Positions 3,120 to 13,110 of a stretch of DNA of 64,000 bases are shown here, piece after piece. This DNA comes from Verrucomicrobiota bacterium. GTDB taxonomy: Bacteria; Verrucomicrobiota; Verrucomicrobiia; Limisphaerales; Fontisphaeraceae. Below the pieces are notes generated by a model, which ran no database searches, had not been told where the DNA came from, and saw nothing but the letters and a program-made list of their open reading frames with translations. The stretch covers positions 1 through 64,000 of the forward strand of contig JBAXGN010000007.1 of assembly GCA_037139415.1 (NCBI GenBank). The letters run 5' to 3'. Position 1 is the first letter of the stretch, and each line of letters starts with the position of its first letter. A program made the translations under genes and the position numbers.

Positions 3120-3290
3120 CAGAAAAATGGGAACCCAATTGCTTTTGCAGAAAATTGTCACGGAACGCAACCGGCGTCTGGATGATGGATTTCAGGTCGC
3201 AAATGCATTTCGCGTTTTTCGCATGTTTAGCGGTTTAATTCCCCACCCCGTTCCAAGTCCTGACTCCGACTTCTATTTTTCTGCAAAATT
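3120..3290 (+). repeat. Dispersed block, copy 1 of a local direct pair
   Basis: The segment from 3120 matches 3988 onward at a constant offset of 868 bp through at least 3242. It shares the phrases CAACCGGCGTCTGGATGATG and TCGCATGTTTAGCGGTTTAA. Divergence rises toward the right end, where both copies still contain TTTCTGCAAAATTT. No coding sense is apparent. The two copies bracket the 9-bp array. Confidence 0.85.
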
Positions 3291-3590
3291 TTGAGTTTTC
3301 ATTCCGCATTCCGCATTCCGAAATCCGCATTGAATTGTTTTCCTCCCGGCGGCAACCACCTTGCTGAAATCCCTGCTACGCTCGCCTCCATGAATGACAT
3401 GAGTATTGTCTGCCCGCTGATCACGCGAACTCGCGCGAATCACTCTCATTTCCCCATGCGTCCCATCGGTACCTGCCCGTTTGCGGTCTTTTGCGGATTC
3501 CAACTCCTGACTCCCAGCTTCTATCTTCTGGCTGTAATTTTTTTGTCAGTAAATTATTCTGCGAAAGGTTTCGCCCTTCGGACTTACTCA

Positions 3591-3680
3591 TCCTGTCCAT
3601 CCTGTCCATCCTGTTCATCCTGTCCATCCTGTTCATCCTGTCCATCCTGTTCATCCTGTCCATCCTGTTCATCCTGTCTT
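3591..3680. repeat. 9-bp tandem array TCCTGTYCA, nine full units
   Basis: Nine full units of TCCTGTCCA or TCCTGTTCA run from 3591 to 3671, followed by TCCTGTCTT. After the first unit the C and T forms alternate strictly, giving an 18-bp higher-order period. The unit length keeps frame, so the reverse strand encodes a Met-Asn-Arg-Met-Asp-Arg run, which I regard as an artefact. A short relative ending in the same TCCTGTCTT lies on the opposite strand at 39145-39177. Confidence 0.95.
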
Positions 3681-3987: not shown

Positions 3988-4190
3988 CAGAAAAATGAGA
4001 ACCCAATTGCTTTTGCAGAAAATTTTTACAAAACGCAACCGGCGTCTGGATGATGGATTTCAGGTCGCAAATACATTTCGCGTTTTTCGCATGTTTAGCG
4101 GTTTAATTCCCTATCCCGTTCTAACTCTTGACTTTGATTTTCTGACAGTGATTTTTATGCCCATCTATGTTTCTGCAAAATTTGGAGTCC
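3988..4190 (+). repeat. Dispersed block, copy 2 of a local direct pair
   Basis: Direct copy of 3120-3290, best conserved over 3988-4110. Substitutions outnumber indels in the core, as expected for a duplicated non-coding unit that has drifted. Just upstream (3929-3957) is a 29-bp stretch shared exactly with the 38.9-kb mosaic. Confidence 0.85.
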
Positions 4191-4374: not shown

Positions 4375-4680
4375 ATGCTGATGCATTTCCCAGTTGGCGG
4401 ATTAACTGCCGCGTTGCTGGTCATCCTCCAGACGCAGCTTATTGCTGCCGATCAGGACTTGCGGTCGCGCAGGCCCGCTCACGAGGGTGGCGGCGCGGAT
4501 GCAATAAAAGGGAAGGGGTTACGGATTATGCGGGCATCAGCGCTGCCCTGCGGGAGATTCATTTCCACGGTGATGCCATCATCGAACTGGCCCACGAGCG
4601 GGATTTCAAACCCACCCGTCCGTCCCCTGCGGGAGAGTCTGAAGATCAGCCGCGAGTTTGTGCGCAACACCTTATGCGAT
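4375..4680 (+). pseudogene. Chimeric remnant: LamG-protein head joined to TIM-barrel tail
   Basis: The first part (4375 to about 4500) encodes a signal peptide and IAADQDLRSRRPAHEGGGA, which parallels LAADPELLLRWPAHEGTGA at the start of the gene at 9976. From 4524 to about 4672 the DNA is a close copy of 8338-8484, the 3' end of the TIM-barrel gene at 7576 (YAGISAALREIHF, IIELAHERDFKP). The two parts are in different frames, and a 4-bp insertion in the run of CCGTCC near 4616-4622 breaks the tail again. It looks like what is left of a second copy of the downstream operon after its middle was deleted. Confidence 0.8.
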
Positions 4681-4703: not shown

Positions 4704-6011
4704 ATGAACCTAACCATCAACCGAATCATGGTGAGTACACTGGCGGTTATTTCACAGGCTGCCGTCGCTGCCGTACCCCAACAAGCAATGCCCTTCCCCT
4801 ATGAACAACGCGTTGCGACTGTCACCGGCATCAACGACTGTGTCGCTTTCTGGGACTTCGTAAAACGCGAACCGGATGGCGCACATCGCTTCCTTGCCCA
4901 TGTGCCAAAAGGCGCAACCAACGACTACGCTCTCGATGCCGCAAATTACGTCAAGGATCTCTGGGGTGAGGGCGACGAAGCCACTTACGCGGACTTCCCG
5001 CTGCTCGGGCGCGGGCCATTCGGACAGGCCATCCGCATCCGCAAAGAGAAGGCCACCACCTTCCGGCCATATCTATTTGTGCCACGCTCCCGACTTCACG
5101 ATTCGCCGCTCGATATCAAGGGACCTGGCAAGTCTGTGACCGTCGTCGTTTGGGCCATCCGGGAGAGCGGTAATCACGCGCTCGCCGGCATCTGGCATGA
5201 GGGCACCGATTTGAAGCAACAGGAGACCGCAAGCATCCAAAAGGTCGAACGCGGACAACGGCAATACGCACTCTTTGCCGGACTGAACAAGGAAGGCTCC
5301 GCCTGCGGTCACGTCTCCGAAAACGGTGCCAGCTCCTTCCTGAATAAATATGCCCTCCACAAATGCAACTCTGCCGACGTCTCCCCCGTCGTGCCGGCGG
5401 ATTCGCCCGCAGAGATACTCGATACCGCATGGCAGTGCTTTGCCATGACCTTTGATCACGAGCGCCACGAGATCACTGGTTGGCTGAACGGCCATTCAGG
5501 CGAGCGCTGGCTGGAGAACCCGAAGAGCGACAAACTGATCTCCTATGCTTACAACGCCTGGTTGCAGGGGTACCTGCATCGTGAACCCGGCGCGCCGGCA
5601 GGCAAGGACCCGAACTTTCCCAAAGACCAGTTCTACAACCCGCCGGAGGAAACTCCGGTTTTGGTAAAGGTCCTCAGTGAAACTGCGGACCAGCAGGTAG
5701 AATTGCGGGAATACCGTTACACAAAAGTGAAGGTGACACTGCGCAAAGAAACGAATGGCCAGTTTACGATTGCCGCGCGGGATCTTGTGGCCCTGAGCCT
5801 GAATCCCTGGTGGTATCCGCACGGCATTTACATGCCGAAGGACGCAACCAGCGGAGGCCCGTTCACCATTGGGCGCGTCATCCACAGCTCTCGCAGCGTC
5901 GGCTTCACCGGCTGGATCGGCGGTGTCGCCGTGTTTAATCGGGCACTGAACGCAGGTGAACTCAAGCGTTTGTCGGATGTGCGGCAATGGAAACCAATCC
6001 CGCAAAACTGA
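4704..6011 (+). CDS. Secreted LamG-like (concanavalin-fold) protein
   Basis: 435 residues from ATG 4704 (MNLTINRIMVSTLAVISQAA), chosen because it gives a Sec signal peptide with Ala-rich cleavage region. The frame stays open far upstream, but only through the chimeric pseudogene. The C-terminal part holds a typical LamG/laminin-G-like closing motif, GFTGWIGGVAVFNRALNAGEL. The middle includes HEITGWLNGHSGERW, the usual mention of an optional strand in this fold. LamG domains bind carbohydrate or protein. No catalytic residues can be assigned. The stop is 5 bp before the ATG of the next gene, so it probably heads the operon at 4704-13110. Confidence 0.65.
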   Translation: MNLTINRIMVSTLAVISQAAVAAVPQQAMPFPYEQRVATVTGINDCVAFWDFVKREPDGAHRFLAHVPKGATNDYALDAANYVKDLWGEGDEATYADFPLLGRGPFGQAIRIRKEKATTFRPYLFVPRSRLHDSPLDIKGPGKSVTVVVWAIRESGNHALAGIWHEGTDLKQQETASIQKVERGQRQYALFAGLNKEGSACGHVSENGASSFLNKYALHKCNSADVSPVVPADSPAEILDTAWQCFAMTFDHERHEITGWLNGHSGERWLENPKSDKLISYAYNAWLQGYLHREPGAPAGKDPNFPKDQFYNPPEETPVLVKVLSETADQQVELREYRYTKVKVTLRKETNGQFTIAARDLVALSLNPWWYPHGIYMPKDATSGGPFTIGRVIHSSRSVGFTGWIGGVAVFNRALNAGELKRLSDVRQWKPIPQN

Positions 6012-6016
6012 TAACG

Positions 6017-7579
6017 ATGAATCTCGTTTTCAAACACATCCTCGCAGGCATGCTGCTGGCATGGGTGGGTAGTCATTGGGTCGCAGGTGCGGACCCAAAA
6101 GCAGTTGAACGGCGTTGTGAACTGGCGGTCATCGGCGGTGGCAGCGGTGGTTTCGGCGCCGCCCTGGCTGCCGCCCGTGCTGGGGTAGATGTGGTGCTGG
6201 TGGAGCGCGGTGATTGTCTGGGCGGCAACTCCGTGCGTGGCGGGGTGAACGGTTGGGAACCCGGTGCCGGTGGCACCGGGTTTCCGTTTGAATTGTACCG
6301 CCGTCTCAAAGCCCAAACCAATGCCATCGGCATCTATTCCTTTGGCCGACACCTGAGCACCTTTGATCCAAACCGGGAACCATACCGGTTTCCAGGTGGC
6401 GAAAACCTCATTGATCCATCCCGCCACTACCTGGATACCTTGGTGCGGGCGGCGGGCCGCAATCTGTCTGCCGCTCAAGCCAAAACCTTTAGACAAGAAC
6501 GCTTGCATGGCCTGCCTTTCGACCCGGATGCCATGGCCAACACCATGCTCGCCATGCTCCGCGAAACCGGCAAATGCCGGGTTTTGCTCAATACCACTTT
6601 TCTCAGCGCGAAGGCCCAGGATGGAATAATCAAATCCGTGCGTTTATCCAATGGCGACACCCTCGTAGCCGATTATTTTGTGGACGCCACAGGCGACGGC
6701 AATGTCTGCCTGGCGGTCGGCTGCGAATCCATGTCTGGGCAGGAAGCCCGTGATCAGTTCAACGAACCGGATGCACCACCCAACGCTAGTGCGCGCGTCA
6801 ACGGAGTTACCCTCATCTACCGCGTATCCCCAACCAATGTCCCGGCAATTGAATCATTGCCCACCAGCGTCCTCACCAATTGTTGGTGGGCCAAAACCTT
6901 TCCGGTTGCGGTGTTCACGCACTATCCCAATGGGGATCTGAACGTCAACATGCTGCCGACCATGGACGGACTCGAATTCATAAAGCTGGGCTACCGTGAC
7001 GCCATGGAGGAGTGCCGCAAGCGCACGCTGGCCCACTGGTATAACCTGCAAACCCGTTACGCCGAATTCCGTGGCTACCATTTGGTGTGGACCGCCCCGG
7101 CTCTGGGCATCCGTGAATCCCGACGCGTCGTGGGTGAGTATGTCCTGACCGAGCACGATTTATTGGCCGGCATTAGCGGCCAAAAACACCCGGATATTAT
7201 CTGCCTGGCCGACCATGCCATGGACACGCACGGCAGCCATTCCCGCAGCACCGGGGAACTGACCGAACCGTATGGCGTGCCATACCGCTGTATCATCCCC
7301 AAGGGCCAACGCAATCTGCTGATTGCCTGCCGCGCGGCCAGTTTTAGTTCGCTCGCCGCATCGAGCTGCCGGTTGTCGCGCACCATGATGCAACTGGGAC
7401 AAGCCGCAGGAACCGCCGTGGCGGTGGCCAGGGAGCTGAAGGTGGATTTGCCGGACGTGCCTCCGGAACGGCTGCGGACGGCATTACGCCAACAGCACGT
7501 TCAACTGGAGCATCCGATGCCGGATGAACTGCGCAGGTATTTAACCAACGATGATGGATTCCAAGTTTTTTCCCCATGA
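6017..7579 (+). CDS. Exported FAD-dependent oxidoreductase (FAD_oxidored family)
   Basis: 520 residues from ATG 6017, 5 bp after the previous stop; a start at 5987 would add ten residues ahead of the signal peptide. Residues 1-29 form a Sec-type signal with no twin arginine. An ADP-binding Rossmann motif follows (LAVIGGGSGGFGAALAAARAG, with VVLVERGDCLGG). VDATGDGNVCLAVG marks the second FAD segment, and IRESRRVVGEY plus a C-terminal LIACRAASFSSLAASS region are typical of this family. The substrate is unknown; sugars or sugar derivatives are likely from context. Export of a flavoprotein by Sec is unusual because FAD is normally loaded in the cytoplasm. It overlaps the next gene by ATGA. Confidence 0.8.
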   Translation: MNLVFKHILAGMLLAWVGSHWVAGADPKAVERRCELAVIGGGSGGFGAALAAARAGVDVVLVERGDCLGGNSVRGGVNGWEPGAGGTGFPFELYRRLKAQTNAIGIYSFGRHLSTFDPNREPYRFPGGENLIDPSRHYLDTLVRAAGRNLSAAQAKTFRQERLHGLPFDPDAMANTMLAMLRETGKCRVLLNTTFLSAKAQDGIIKSVRLSNGDTLVADYFVDATGDGNVCLAVGCESMSGQEARDQFNEPDAPPNASARVNGVTLIYRVSPTNVPAIESLPTSVLTNCWWAKTFPVAVFTHYPNGDLNVNMLPTMDGLEFIKLGYRDAMEECRKRTLAHWYNLQTRYAEFRGYHLVWTAPALGIRESRRVVGEYVLTEHDLLAGISGQKHPDIICLADHAMDTHGSHSRSTGELTEPYGVPYRCIIPKGQRNLLIACRAASFSSLAASSCRLSRTMMQLGQAAGTAVAVARELKVDLPDVPPERLRTALRQQHVQLEHPMPDELRRYLTNDDGFQVFSP

Positions 7580-8493
7580 AAACCAACCGACGTGAATTTC
7601 TGTGGACTACCGCAACTGCCGCTGTGGCTGGCTTTGGGCTGACTGCCTGCTCCACGCCCGGAAAGCCGGCAGCACGAAAAATTGTCGTGGGGGCGCACCC
7701 GTGGGTGTATGCGGCCACCCAACCGGGCTATGACCTCACGCCCGTGTTGCCGCAAATTTTTACCGATATGAGCTATGCCGACATGGACGGCATCGAACTC
7801 ATGCATACGGCCTTGCGCCCTGATACGGCGGTGGAACACATCGGCGAGTTATCGCGGCAACATAGGCTTCCCGTTATCGGTTCCTCCTTCAGCGGCGCGA
7901 TGTGGGACCGTCAGCAACATGCAGCCGTCATGGCGGACGCTGAACTCGTCATCCCGCGCCTGGCCAAGCTCGGTGGGCGCACACTGGGCATCTCGGTTGG
8001 CCCGATCAAATGGGGGAACAAAGCCCGCAAAACGACGGAACAACTCGACGCCCAAGCGGAGCTGCTCCGCAAAATCATAACCCTCTGCGCCCAGCACGGC
8101 ATCGTGCCCAATCTGCACAACCACACCTACGAGGTCGAAAATGAGTTGCACGATTTGAAGGGCACGCTGACCCGTTTGCCCGGGACAAAGCTGGGCCCGG
8201 ACCTCAACTGGCTGGAGCGTGGCGGAGTGGACCCGGCCACCTTCCTCCGGCAATATGGCTCGCAGATTGTCTTCCTCCATCTGCGCGACCAGAAGAAGGA
8301 CGGACGCTGGTCGGAGGCGCTGGGTGAGGGGGATATGGATTATGCGGGCATCAGCGCTGCCTTGCGGGAGATTCATTTCCGCGGTGATGCCATCATCGAA
8401 CTGGCCCATGAGCGGGATTTTAAACCCACCCGTCCCCTGCGGGAGAGTCTGAAGATCAGCCGCGAGTTTGTGCGAAACACTTTGGGGTACTGA
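7576..8493 (+). CDS. Tat-exported lipoprotein of the sugar isomerase/epimerase TIM-barrel family
   Basis: 305 residues. The N terminus has a twin-arginine motif (NRREFLW), a hydrophobic stretch and a lipobox (GLTAC), so it should be a Tat-exported lipoprotein. The body is an AP-endonuclease-2/xylose-isomerase-like TIM barrel with likely metal or substrate ligands in HNHTYE, GPDLNWLE, HLRDQ and IIELAHERD. Members of this family act as sugar isomerases, epimerases and, in recent work on glycoside breakdown, as eliminases on 3-keto sugars. The exact reaction cannot be read from sequence. The start overlaps the upstream FAD gene stop (ATGA). Its 3' 150 bp is duplicated at 4524-4672. Confidence 0.8.
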   Translation: MKTNRREFLWTTATAAVAGFGLTACSTPGKPAARKIVVGAHPWVYAATQPGYDLTPVLPQIFTDMSYADMDGIELMHTALRPDTAVEHIGELSRQHRLPVIGSSFSGAMWDRQQHAAVMADAELVIPRLAKLGGRTLGISVGPIKWGNKARKTTEQLDAQAELLRKIITLCAQHGIVPNLHNHTYEVENELHDLKGTLTRLPGTKLGPDLNWLERGGVDPATFLRQYGSQIVFLHLRDQKKDGRWSEALGEGDMDYAGISAALREIHFRGDAIIELAHERDFKPTRPLRESLKISREFVRNTLGY

Positions 8494-8542
8494 GCATCTA
8501 TTGAGCATCTATTGAACTGTACGAACCAGTCATCGAATAACT

Positions 8543-9979
8543 ATGAAACGCAGGGACTTTTTGAAACTGGGCAGTGCCACCGCCACTGTGGGGCTCGGCG
8601 GCGCATGGGCACAAGGCACGGATGCGTCAGCAGCGAAACCTGGATGCATTTCCCAACCCGCCCGCGAAATTCCCGTGCTTGCCGAAGCCGACGTGGTCAT
8701 CTGCGGCGGCGGCACGGCTGGCATTTCCTCAGCGTGCTGCGCGGCGCGGCACGGGGCCAAGGTCATCCTATTGGAGCGCTGGCCCAGCGTCGGCGGCATG
8801 GCCACCAACGCGCTCGTCAACATCTGGCATACCAGCGACCGCCAGAAACAGGTCATTCACGGATTCGTGCAGGAGGCGATTGATCGCGGCGGGCGTTTCG
8901 TTCGTCGCATGGCCGACTTCCCCAGACGCCCCGAGACGCACGAATTCGATTCCACCGGCATGCGCGTCGTGTTTCACCGCATGCTCAAGGATGCCGGGGT
9001 GCGCACCTTCTGCAATCTCCCGGCCGTGGAATCTATCCGCGATAGGGATAGGCTCTCCGCCGTGCTGGTGGACACCAAGACCGGGCGCAAAGCCGTGCGT
9101 GCCAAAATCTTCATTGACGCTACGGGCGACGGCGACATTGCCGCCAACGCCGGTGCACCGTTTGACTATGGCCGCACCAGTGATGGCGGAGTGCAGGGCA
9201 TGACCATGATGTACCGCCTGCGCGGGTTGGATAGCGCCACCATCAAGGCTCACTCCAAAGATGCCGAACGGGTTTTCGCCCTGATGAAAAAATTGCGGGA
9301 CGAAGGTAAGTTCCCGCAGTTCCTCGAATCGGCAGCCCGCTCCTATTTGATCAGCCCACGCGATCCCATCGTCTCTTATAACATGTGCCCCGTGGCGGGA
9401 AACCCGTTGGACGAAGAAGAACTGACCCGGCTTTCCCAACAGGCCCGCGAACAGGTCTATCAATACGTGGATCTCTGGCGGGCGGAAATGCCCGGTTTTG
9501 AAAAAGTCGAAGTGGAGCAAATGGGCCACAGCTTGGGTATCCGCGAATCCCGCCGTATTCGCGGCCTCAAGACGTTGAATGCACAGATGGTCGTCAAGGC
9601 GGTCAAACAGGCCGATGCCATCGGACACGGTTTCTGGATGATTGATATTCACGATCCGAAGGGCACGGGCCACACGACGTGGGTGGATCAGAAGGCGGAA
9701 ATGATGCCACCCGTCGGTGATAGTTATCACATTCCACTGGGCATGTGCCTGAATCCGCAGATACTCAACCTCGCCGTGGTTGGTCGGTGCGCCTCCGCCA
9801 CGCATGAAGCTCATGCCTCCGTCCGCTTGCAAAGCCACTGCATGGTCATGGGTCAGGGCATCGGCACCTGCGCCGCGCTCGCGCTCAATGCCGGCGTGGA
9901 CATGGGAAAGTTCGGCGTCCAGAAACTTCAGACTCAATTACGCAAAGACGGCGTCTATCTGGAAAACTTACCATCATGA
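8543..9979 (+). CDS. Tat-exported FAD-dependent oxidoreductase
   Basis: 478 residues. MKRRDFLKLGSATATVGLGG is a clear Tat signal, which suits a cofactor-bearing enzyme. The FAD-binding Rossmann motif is VVICGGGTAGISSACCAARHG, followed by VILLERWPSVGGMATNALV. DATGDGDIAANAGAPFDYG and a GHSLGIRESRRIRG segment match the same FAD_oxidored family as the gene at 6017, so the operon has two diverged paralogues exported by different routes. It ends with an ATGA overlap onto the next gene. Electron acceptor and substrate are unknown. Confidence 0.8.
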   Translation: MKRRDFLKLGSATATVGLGGAWAQGTDASAAKPGCISQPAREIPVLAEADVVICGGGTAGISSACCAARHGAKVILLERWPSVGGMATNALVNIWHTSDRQKQVIHGFVQEAIDRGGRFVRRMADFPRRPETHEFDSTGMRVVFHRMLKDAGVRTFCNLPAVESIRDRDRLSAVLVDTKTGRKAVRAKIFIDATGDGDIAANAGAPFDYGRTSDGGVQGMTMMYRLRGLDSATIKAHSKDAERVFALMKKLRDEGKFPQFLESAARSYLISPRDPIVSYNMCPVAGNPLDEEELTRLSQQAREQVYQYVDLWRAEMPGFEKVEVEQMGHSLGIRESRRIRGLKTLNAQMVVKAVKQADAIGHGFWMIDIHDPKGTGHTTWVDQKAEMMPPVGDSYHIPLGMCLNPQILNLAVVGRCASATHEAHASVRLQSHCMVMGQGIGTCAALALNAGVDMGKFGVQKLQTQLRKDGVYLENLPS

Positions 9980-12900
9980 AACTAACAAGCCCAACAATTT
10001 TCGTAGGCGCACTGGCGATCATCGCCCTCAACACCCTATTACTGGCTGCCGATCCGGAACTACTGCTGCGCTGGCCGGCCCATGAGGGAACCGGCGCGGT
10101 GGTACAAGACACCTCCGGTAATGGCCTAGACGGACGTTCCACCGCTGGCTGGGTTGGCGAGGGCGGCATCAAGGCGCTTTTCTTCGATGGCCAATCCAAA
10201 TCCGTGGTGCGCGTTCAGGTGCCCGCCGGCAAATATTTGGGCGCCGGCGACTGGTCCTTTATGGCCTGGCTGCGTCCCGAAGTGCTCGGCTTTCCCGGCA
10301 AACAGGATCAGCGGCGCATCTTTAATTACGGCAAATATCCGGATGCCTCGGTCAACTTCGATCTCACTGGCCAAGGCGCCTTGAGCTGGTATCTCGTGTA
10401 CAAGGATGCCAACGGCAAGAGCGTGTCGGCCGGTGGCGGTTCGGTGCCCCGCTTCAAGCCCAGGACCTGGCTGCACACGGCCCTGGTGGTGGATCGCCGC
10501 AACGCGCGGGTGACCGTTTACCTGAACGGACGCGAGTCGGGCCAAGGTCCGCTGCCCCAAGGCTGGGCGGCAAATTTCAACCTGGGCAACGAACTCATGA
10601 TCGGTTCGGGCTGGCAGAATTTCCACGGTGCCATGGCCGATGTGGCTGTATGGCGACGCACCCTTGGTGAGGCCGAGATTAAATCGCTATTCCGCACCCA
10701 GAGCCCCGCTTACGGTGTCAAACTGGGCGATGGCATGACCGCCGAGGAAGTCCTGGGCGACCTGGCGGAATTGGGCAACGATGCCATGGCACAGAAGAAA
10801 ACGGCTGAGGCGCGGACTGCGTTTGACAAGCTACTGACCACCCCCGGTGTGCCACCCGGTTGGGCGGCGTGGGCTGAGTTGCGGATCGCCCAGGCTCACC
10901 GGTTGGATCGCAACGATGCGGCCGCCAAGGCGGTTTACCAGCATATCCAGGGCCAGTCGGCGTATCTGGCACACCATCGCCAGGAAGCCGCCGAGCTGCA
11001 GCAGGAAATGGAGCGCACTGCCAAAGGGTTACCCGCCCGCGATGTCATGGCCACGCGCACGGTGCTGCCGGTGATTGACCACTATGCAGCGGAAGTCTGG
11101 ATCGCTCCGGATGGTAACGATGCCTATCGTGGTCAAGCGACCAAACCGGTCGCCACGCTCAACCGGGCGCAGGCGTTGGTGCGCGAACTGCGGCGCACGG
11201 TTACCGGCCCCGTCGCCGTCATCTTCAAGAACGGTGAATACCAGTTACACGAGGGGCTGAAGTTGACCGCTGAGGATTCCGGTGCCCCGACTGCCCCCGT
11301 CGTTTGGAAAGCCGCTGAGAGCGGTAAGGTGGTGCTTTATGGCGGCATGCGGTTGAAAGGATTTGCTCCGGTGGCGGATGCCTCCGTAGTGGCGCGCCTG
11401 GATCCAAAAGCCCGGGGTAATGTCATGGTCTGCGACCTCAAGCAGCTTGGCCTTACGGATTATGGCAGGCTGGCCGTGCGCGGCTACAGCCAACCGCCAT
11501 CTCCGCCCACCGTCGAGCTATTCGTCAACGGCGAACCGCAGACTCTCGCCCGCTGGCCCAACGACGGTTTTGTGGATGCCGGCAAACTCATCGAGCCCGG
11601 CAATAAAACCAATGGCACCCCATCCGTGTTTGAATATCTGGATGACCGCCATGCCCGGTGGACCAATGCCGAAGATGCCTGGCTGTTTGGCTATTGGCGT
11701 TATCTCTGGGCGGATGCCACGCTCAAAATCGGCAAGCTCGATACCGCCAGCAAGCGTATCACCTCCGCCCAGCCCTATTGGATGAGCCATAACGGCATGG
11801 ACACCAAGCAGGGCATCAAGTATTACGCATTTAATTTGCTGGAAGAGTTGGACCGTCCCGGCGAATGGTATTTGGACCGCAGCCAAGGCCTGCTTTACCT
11901 CTGGCCCACTGGCGATCCGTCTCGCCAGACCATTGAGTTGGGCGTCCTGTCCTCGCCCTTTATGACGCTCACCAAAACCGCGCATGTGCGGTTTGAAGGC
12001 CTCGTCTGCGATCTCGGGCGCTTTGATGGCATCCAGATTTCCGGCGGTGAAAATGTGCAGTTGGTCGGTTGCGTGGTGCGGCGCATGGCCGGGAGTGGCA
12101 TAACGATTTCCGGTGGCACCCGGCACACGCTGCTGGGTTGCGACATCCATCATCTCGGTCGCGCCGCCACCACGTTGAAAGGCGGCAACCGGGCCACGTT
12201 GGAGCGGGCGGACTTCCTCATTGAGAATTGTCACCTGCACCATTTCGGCCGCATTGACCGCACCTACACCCCGGCCATCCAGGCCGAAGGCGTCGGCATG
12301 CGTTTTGCGCATAACCTCATGCACGATTGCCCCAGTTCGGCCATCCGCGTGGACGGCAACGACGTGCTCATGGAATACAATGACGTCCATAGCGTCCTGC
12401 GCGAATCCGACGATCAGGGCGGCATGGAAACCTTCGGCAACCCTTCCTTTCGCGGCCTGGTCTTCCGCTATAACCGTTTTGAAAACGTCGGCAACGGTTC
12501 CACCATGGTCAATGGTCAATCCGCCATCCGCTTTGATGACGTGATCAGCGGCATGCTGGTCTATGGCAACCTGTTTATCCGCTCAGCGAACGGCCATTTT
12601 GGTGCCCTCCAGATCAACGGCGGCCGGGATGACATCATGGATAACAACCTGTTCGTGGACTGCAAACTGGGCATCAGCGGTCGCTATTGGAAGAACCATA
12701 AGCACTGGACGGCGTCCGAGCAGGGAGTCACGCGCGATGTGTTCCGCACGCCCCTCTATCTCCAGCGTTACCCGGAAATTGCGAACATGTTCGATGGCAA
12801 CGGCCGCAACTTCGCCTGGCGGATGGCCTTGATTGACTGCGGCACACCGATTGTCCAAAAGGCGTTCTTCGACATCCTTGCCCTGCGCAGTTGGACTTCC

Positions 12901-13110
12901 AAAGATCCGGGCATCGCCGAACTCGCCAAGCGCCAATGGAATCTTGCCGCCGATAGCGAACTCGTGTTGCGCCTCGGACTCCGCCCGATCCCCCTGGCCG
13001 AAATCGGGCTTTACGCGGATCGCACCCGTGCCAGTTGGCCGGTAATCACCACGCCGGTTGAAGTGCCCGATTGGCGCGAAGCGGTAAAACCGCGTCCCTG
13101 GCCGGAATAA
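9976..13110 (+). CDS. Secreted LamG plus right-handed beta-helix protein
   Basis: 1044 residues with a Sec signal (about residues 1-25). Residues 30-240 form a LamG domain (SFMAWLRPE, AMADVAVWRRTLGEAEI). Residues about 250-350 are helical and TPR-like (AEEVLGDLAELGNDAMAQKK). From about 370 (EVWIAPDGNDAYRG) to the C terminus is a parallel beta-helix of the kind found in polysaccharide lyases and hydrolases, with repeated short turns such as GIQISGGENVQLVGC and SGITISGGTRHTLLGC. The family often acts on or binds polysaccharide. No catalytic residues are assigned. It is the last gene of the ATGA-coupled operon and probably provides the oligosaccharide substrate for the upstream enzymes (inference). 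Confidence 0.8.
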   Translation: MKLTSPTIFVGALAIIALNTLLLAADPELLLRWPAHEGTGAVVQDTSGNGLDGRSTAGWVGEGGIKALFFDGQSKSVVRVQVPAGKYLGAGDWSFMAWLRPEVLGFPGKQDQRRIFNYGKYPDASVNFDLTGQGALSWYLVYKDANGKSVSAGGGSVPRFKPRTWLHTALVVDRRNARVTVYLNGRESGQGPLPQGWAANFNLGNELMIGSGWQNFHGAMADVAVWRRTLGEAEIKSLFRTQSPAYGVKLGDGMTAEEVLGDLAELGNDAMAQKKTAEARTAFDKLLTTPGVPPGWAAWAELRIAQAHRLDRNDAAAKAVYQHIQGQSAYLAHHRQEAAELQQEMERTAKGLPARDVMATRTVLPVIDHYAAEVWIAPDGNDAYRGQATKPVATLNRAQALVRELRRTVTGPVAVIFKNGEYQLHEGLKLTAEDSGAPTAPVVWKAAESGKVVLYGGMRLKGFAPVADASVVARLDPKARGNVMVCDLKQLGLTDYGRLAVRGYSQPPSPPTVELFVNGEPQTLARWPNDGFVDAGKLIEPGNKTNGTPSVFEYLDDRHARWTNAEDAWLFGYWRYLWADATLKIGKLDTASKRITSAQPYWMSHNGMDTKQGIKYYAFNLLEELDRPGEWYLDRSQGLLYLWPTGDPSRQTIELGVLSSPFMTLTKTAHVRFEGLVCDLGRFDGIQISGGENVQLVGCVVRRMAGSGITISGGTRHTLLGCDIHHLGRAATTLKGGNRATLERADFLIENCHLHHFGRIDRTYTPAIQAEGVGMRFAHNLMHDCPSSAIRVDGNDVLMEYNDVHSVLRESDDQGGMETFGNPSFRGLVFRYNRFENVGNGSTMVNGQSAIRFDDVISGMLVYGNLFIRSANGHFGALQINGGRDDIMDNNLFVDCKLGISGRYWKNHKHWTASEQGVTRDVFRTPLYLQRYPEIANMFDGNGRNFAWRMALIDCGTPIVQKAFFDILALRSWTSKDPGIAELAKRQWNLAADSELVLRLGLRPIPLAEIGLYADRTRASWPVITTPVEVPDWREAVKPRPWPE

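Follow-up and report, generated by a model that had tools for sequence, protein, structure and literature searches.

A possible glycan-processing operon of five exported proteins, with two PF12831 flavoenzymes around a TIM-barrel protein, in a Verrucomicrobiota bacterium

Five open reading frames with export signals are located on the plus strand at positions 4704–13110 of the window, i.e., the whole 64,000-nt stretch of DNA that was analyzed. The host genome (G000) is 7.9 Mb in size and 98% complete. The genes are termed g1 to g5:

4704..6011, plus strand: g1, predicted exported protein with a weak C-terminal LamG/concanavalin-like signature, for which the only match is a sub-threshold one to LamG
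5987..7579, plus strand: g2 (FADa), predicted exported PF12831 FAD oxidoreductase
7576..8493, plus strand: g3 (TIM), predicted Tat lipoprotein, PF01261 xylose-isomerase-like TIM barrel with an AtOGE-like HxH/D/H/E active site
8543..9979, plus strand: g4 (FADb), predicted Tat-exported PF12831 FAD oxidoreductase of a subfamily other than that of g2
9976..13110, plus strand: g5, predicted exported protein with a LamG domain and a GH141-like right-handed beta-helix, Asp pair D813/D854

An earlier note on this DNA had described an operon for five exported proteins, and the ORFs are confirmed. Export signals were assigned by direct inspection of the sequence and read as Sec, Sec, Tat plus lipobox, Tat and Sec, in gene order. 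The g1 and g2 products have the Sec signals MNLTINRIMVSTLAVISQAAVAA and MNLVFKHILAGMLLAWVGSHWVAGA, respectively, and g5 has a Sec signal read from the residues ...NTLLLAADPE. The g3 product has the Tat motif RREFL followed by the lipobox LTAC, and g4 has the Tat motif RRDFLK followed by AWA. Three junctions had been described as overlapping or 5 bp apart, which is borne out for three of the four. There is a 25 bp overlap between g1 and g2, which becomes a gap of 5 bp if g2 starts at Met11 (position 6017), and a 4 bp overlap at both g2/g3 and g4/g5. The gap between g3 and g4 is 49 bp. A simple consensus scan for promoters and terminators gave counts equal to those of shuffled sequences.

Pfam searches show that g2 (E 2e-79, 268 bits) and g4 (E 2e-99, 334 bits; cut-off 27) match PF12831 over the full length of the model. 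The g3 product matches PF01261 (E 6e-16). Matches to Laminin_G_3 (2.5e-18) and Beta_helix (3e-12) are found in g5, in agreement with the beta-helix protein earlier placed at the end of the operon. The match of g5 to GH141_M is below threshold (20.4 bits vs. a cut-off of 27).

Two remnants of genes of this operon, not described in the earlier note, are present immediately 5' of g1:

4444..4498, plus strand: 55-bp remnant similar to the end of the signal peptide and the start of LamG in g5
4512..4673, plus strand: remnant, a second copy of the g3 3' end, 94% identical to 8326–8483, with a 4-bp insertion frameshift

The second remnant corresponds to the last 160 bp of g3. Comparison of the first with g5 gives a DNA score of 40 (shuffled maximum 25) and a protein score of 74 (shuffled maximum 43). 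Positions 4444–4673 thus comprise a g5-like start followed by a g3 end, a decayed scar of a second copy directly upstream of g1. Because remnants of both g3 and g5 lie 5' of g1, the locus has been duplicated and partly deleted, and it is to be read as rearranged. Further upstream are a 9-bp tandem array (CCATCCTGT/TCATCCTGT) at positions 3588–3677 and a 153-bp intergenic repeat, whose two copies (3120–3272 and 3988–4140, 91% identical) flank the array.

A scan of 84,980 species for g3 gave, in the best 80 loci, relatives at 45–75% identity from Verrucomicrobia, Planctomycetes, Acidobacteria, Armatimonadetes, Bacteroidota and other groups. An alignment of 45 orthologs from several phyla shows that E74, H181, N182, H183, D209, R237, D238 and E275 are invariant and that H235 is conserved in at least 90%. 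Many of these orthologs also have a twin arginine at the N-terminus. PDB matches of the g3 profile include 8tct, Art22, 8bvk (AtOGE), 8tcs and 8tcd; the HNH motif of g3 is shared by 8tct, 8tcs and 8tcd, all three of which rank among the best matches. In AtOGE (8bvk) the Mn site consists of His132, Asp163, His189 and, weakly, Glu233, and the catalytic residue is His134 (PMC10628242). The profile alignment places H181 of g3 on His132, H183 on His134, D209 on Asp163 and H235 on His189. The alignment stops short of Glu233 of AtOGE; E275, located where the final barrel strand ends, is paired with it by strand order. Where g3 has H181, Glu is found in Art22, an isomerase of known structure, and in two paralogs encoded by the host genome.

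The AF2 model of g3 has a pLDDT of 92.8 and a pTM of 0.86, and the fold matches listed for it are xylose-isomerase-like TIM barrels. D-allulose/D-tagatose epimerases and Art22 are at the top, with TM about 0.7. The best curated-family match is IolE, myo-inosose-2 dehydratase (29.5 bits vs. a cut-off of 290). Since the fold search puts epimerases first, the choice of an eliminase over an epimerase is based on the active-site residues and on the company of other genes. From these residues g3 is probably a keto-sugar-cleaving enzyme that has an eliminase-type active site and not the glutamate of the epimerases. The signature is also present in a large PF01261 branch of the order, and it is therefore characteristic of a class of mechanism and not of a substrate. 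The g3 gene is the best-supported part of the operon, and its exported, widely spread family is a good candidate for an uncharacterized keto-sugar lyase.

The 80 loci of the g3 family were divided by hand, from record titles, into 39 from Bacteroidota and 41 others, and neighbors on the same strand were counted within the stretch retrieved for each locus. GFO/MocA genes are the most frequent neighbors (33 of 39 in Bacteroidota, 10 of the 41 others). GMC genes come second in Bacteroidota (24/39), where PF12831 genes are found at 16/39 loci; the other loci have sulfatase genes in seven cases and PF12831 in three. The Bacteroidota loci display a conserved gene order, TIM-GFO-GMC-Gluconate_2-dh3-SDR-ROK-SIS-PF12831-PTE, with a GntR/UTRA regulator gene on the opposite strand behind most of the operons. 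The TIM-GFO-(GMC-Gluconate_2-dh3)-...-PTE arrangement is seen at L132, L133, L138, L141, L143, L147, L150, L157, L168 and L171. This operon is more strongly conserved than the one in the window and resembles a pathway for keto-sugar catabolism. Its combination of GMC, Gluconate_2-dh3, GFO and TIM barrel matches the published logic of oxidation, elimination, hydration and reduction. No description of the Bacteroidota operon with PF12831 and PTE was found in the literature.

The three PF12831-linked loci outside Bacteroidota (L095, L096 and L098) have one common cluster with sulfatases. In the verrucomicrobial L095 the order on one strand is TIM, GH29 (a fucosidase gene), sulfatase, PF12831, one ORF, and a GH141-like beta-helix gene; L096 and L098 have TIM, sulfatases and PF12831. 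A phylogenetic tree shows that PF12831 proteins linked to g3-type TIM barrels elsewhere belong to subfamilies other than those of g2 and g4. A relative of the L095/L096/L098 subfamily is also encoded in the genome of the window (L218, G000:C142:4858–6213), where neither a TIM nor a sulfatase nor a GH141-like gene was detected next to it.

The earlier note had g3 flanked by a paralogous FAD pair. Both proteins are indeed PF12831 members, but they are only about 23% identical and belong to separate subfamilies in the tree, which rules out a recent duplication as the origin of the pair. About 20 full-length PF12831 copies are present in this genome. Matches in the flavoenzyme profile search are confined to the FAD domain, the best being flavocytochrome c fumarate reductase. 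The AF2 model has a pLDDT of 75, with query-normalized TM values of at most 0.40 among the PDB matches listed, and is thus uninformative as to the substrate. None of the profile and fold matches is a solved structure that covers g2 or g4 beyond the FAD fold, and a literature search on the function of PF12831 found no functional study.

Within its own order g4 has only one close relative (62% identity, genome G197), whereas orthologs elsewhere in the phylum are 54–78% identical, the 78% one being in another class. In genome G507, also of another class, the orthologs of g4 (77%) and g1 (71%) are part of one exported, tightly spaced set, P720-GFO-g4-g1, in which g1 directly follows g4. P720 denotes an exported family of 720–750 aa that has no Pfam match (L231:957–3122, L060:2981–5233 and L230:6456–8501). 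The g4 ortholog of G197 has a 4-bp overlap with a GH141-like gene and P720 upstream; the genes that follow it encode a second PF12831 FAD protein, GH38, ROK, URO-D, SIS and an MFS-type sugar transporter. Eleven g4 neighborhoods were compared; GH38 is near g4 in five and P720 beside it in three. The recurrent GH38/ROK/SIS company gives the g4 subfamily a context of glycan degradation. The phylum-wide closest orthologs of g2 are in G410, G507 and G304, which also have g4 orthologs on other contigs. No TIM, g1 or g5 gene is near the g2 orthologs of G410, G507, G304, G004 and G174, and no neighbor recurs among the neighborhoods of g2 orthologs.

A GMC oxidoreductase and a Tat-exported Gluconate_2-dh3 protein are encoded elsewhere in the host genome, on contig C41 (L240, 4647–7956). 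The adjoining gene encodes a membrane protein that contains the motif CASCH and may be a cytochrome. The GMC/Gluconate_2-dh3 pair could be an alternative oxidizer for g3.

Activities in GH141 are alpha-L-fucosidase, xylanase and endo-fucanase. The g5 family is present in 106 of the 293 genomes of the order. In a profile alignment that also includes 9rx2, D813 and D854 of g5 fall on the two catalytic aspartates of BT_1002 (5mqp). These are D523/D564 in the published numbering, which is offset by 5 from chain positions D528/D569 (PMC12786026). The family includes the Wf141 endo-fucanases (PMC12786026). The g5 protein looks like an active GH141-type glycosidase, as judged from the conserved aspartates, and is called GH141-like and not a member because its GH141_M match is below the Pfam cut-off. 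Orthologs of g1 are found in only 10 of 293 genomes, with about 70% identity over several families of the order (L193–L199), and none of the other operon genes is near these relatives. This patchy distribution suggests horizontal transfer.

Conservation was searched in 293 genomes of the order and in the best 80 g3 loci from 84,980 species. The full five-gene set is absent from both, and conserved linkage of the whole set is thereby rejected. Recurrence in relatives had been named beforehand as a check on the operon, and it largely fails, with orthologs scattered over genomes and contigs of the 293. Nowhere in these genomes is g3 united with g2 or g4 at one locus; orthologs of g2, g3 and g4 sit in different genomes of the order, and those of g1, g4 and g5 are on three separate contigs in G197. 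The neighborhoods of g5-like and g1-like genes retrieved from relatives have no PF12831 gene or g3-type TIM gene, and a general linkage of g5 to FAD enzymes was rejected on the g5-like ones. The genome of the window has two PF01261-PF12831 pairs within 5 kb, both in this operon, vs. 1.4 expected, and 17 PF01261-GFO pairs, a positive control, vs. 4.5 expected, where the expected numbers are rough and assume uniform gene placement. A genome-wide association of PF01261 with PF12831 was rejected, as nothing beyond chance is seen.

The arrangement of the genes is consistent with a single transcription unit, which would produce glycan-processing proteins of the cell envelope or periplasm and may have been assembled within the lineage from parts of separate histories. 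In the proposed mechanism, g5 would bind and hydrolyze a polysaccharide or oligosaccharide by means of its LamG and GH141-like beta-helix domains, and the weakly LamG-like g1 may aid in glycan binding. The g3 protein would act as a metal-dependent, probably Mn2+-dependent, keto-sugar beta-eliminase or hydratase that takes a proton from beside the ketone of the sugar, with expulsion of the aglycone or the neighboring sugar. One of the PF12831 enzymes, more likely g4 than g2, may supply or remove the ketone outside the cytoplasm and pass electrons to some acceptor; the FAD-enzyme substrate and the coupling to g3 are guesses. The assignments of g3 and g5 are made because their catalytic residues are conserved. 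The keto-group role of PF12831 is proposed because the genes are close together, because weak partial linkage is seen at other loci and because members of the g4 subfamily are accompanied by sugar genes. The earlier reading of the locus as one for sugar degradation stands as regards the eliminase-type site of g3, the GH141-like Asp pair of g5 and the sugar-gene company of g3 and g4, but not as regards linkage of the set.

We tentatively regard the locus, with somewhat less than even confidence, as one glycan-processing operon that combines a g5 glycosidase, a g3 eliminase or hydratase and a PF12831 ketone step. The co-occurrence of g4 orthologs with the closest phylum-wide g2 orthologs in three genomes argues for it; that the full set is seen at no other locus and that g2 has no recurrent partner argue against it, as do the different subfamilies of TIM-linked PF12831 elsewhere and the C41 GMC pair that could oxidize instead. 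Quite possible, though on balance doubtful, is an opportunistic cassette in which exported glycan genes were joined by recombination and horizontal transfer, have no common pathway, and include FAD enzymes that do not feed g3. The missing linkage of the set in relatives is in keeping with such a cassette, as are the two remnants of a rearranged copy upstream of g1, the PF01261-PF12831 result for the genome and the unequal affinities of the parts, e.g., 78% identity of g4 to another class and no more than 62% within its order. The cassette agrees less well with the tight junctions and the export signals on all five products. Moreover, chance is a poor explanation for partial linkages that recur in other phyla and classes (L095, L231, L060 and the Bacteroidota operon).

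It is unlikely that g3, as an eliminase or hydratase, depends on another oxidizer, for instance the C41 GMC/Gluconate_2-dh3 pair or GFO/MocA, while the PF12831 enzymes catalyze something else, e.g., C=C reduction or oxidation on aglycones or lipids. This operon has no GMC or GFO gene, and two PF12831 genes flank g3. The presence of the GMC pair in the genome, the leading place of GFO (33/39 Bacteroidota, 10/41 others) and the 24/39 of GMC among g3-family neighbors, and the fumarate-reductase-like flavoproteins matched by PF12831 are all points for it; PF12831 also occurs alongside GMC in the Bacteroidota operons and is thus not the sole oxidizer there. For g3, the epimerase and Art22 folds at TM about 0.7 and IolE as best curated match would suggest a standard epimerase/isomerase for ketoses or sugar acids, or an inosose-dehydratase-like PF01261 enzyme, without glycoside cleavage. 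This is highly improbable, given that the first metal ligand of g3 is the His of HxH as in AtOGE, where Art22 has Glu, and that many orthologs have an N-terminal Tat motif and are linked to GMC or GFO genes. Returning to the glycan-processing operon, its most far-reaching form is rather unlikely: PF12831 would be a third class of extracytoplasmic sugar oxidizer next to GMC and GFO/MocA, and the keto group that it makes would let an exported OGE-like TIM eliminase cut surface glycans in a flavin-only, NAD-free manner. A further point against the operon reading is that the profile and fold matches give no structural sign of sugar binding by the FAD enzymes. If PF12831 enzymes do oxidize sugars outside the cell, this would provide a function for a large set of so far unassigned enzymes in major polysaccharide degraders.

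Cleavage of glycans by oxidation and elimination has been recognized only recently, with oxidizers of the GFO and GMC types. Nasseri et al. reportedly described a broad-specificity pathway of 3-keto glycan breakdown in Nature in 2024 (doi 10.1038/s41586-024-07574-y, as cited in PMC12291463), and the structures 8tcd, 8tcs and 8tct are presumably from that pathway. Systems of this kind oxidize with NAD-dependent GFO-type enzymes; PF12831 flavoenzymes flank the TIM barrel here. With regard to g5, the parallel beta-helix, the insertion-domain signature and both catalytic Asp residues resemble GH141 (BT1002, 5mqp); g5 differs in its extra N-terminal LamG and in a GH141_M match below the cut-off, and 9rx2 ('Parallel beta-helix repeat protein') is a closer solved relative than BT1002. 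The two flavoenzymes match the full PF12831 FAD_oxidored model as two separate subfamilies. Another close parallel involves GlycDH, which we take to be GMC-type, and AtOGE. In that operon of Agrobacterium tumefaciens, oxidation by a flavoenzyme is followed by beta-elimination of the 3-keto-O-glycoside in a TIM barrel (PMC10628242). Shared features are the PF01261-type TIM fold with the HxH-D-H-E metal/catalytic set in g3, the flavoenzyme and TIM-barrel neighbors, and the GFO partner in many g3-family loci. The similarity of AtOGE to g3 is weak and at the level of profiles, GlycDH, the oxidizer that serves AtOGE, is described as a flavoenzyme oxidoreductase (PMC10628242) and is not PF12831, g3 is a predicted Tat lipoprotein, and the operon here has no GFO or second hydratase. 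In view of this published order of flavoenzyme oxidation and then TIM elimination (PMC10628242), the term 'undescribed route' in the earlier note is too strong; the use of PF12831 enzymes as oxidizer would be the new element, and nothing else in the route. The five genes are best read as a lineage-specific mosaic of glycan-degrading parts, which probably carries out a modified form of the known oxidation-elimination route with PF12831 as the putative oxidizer.
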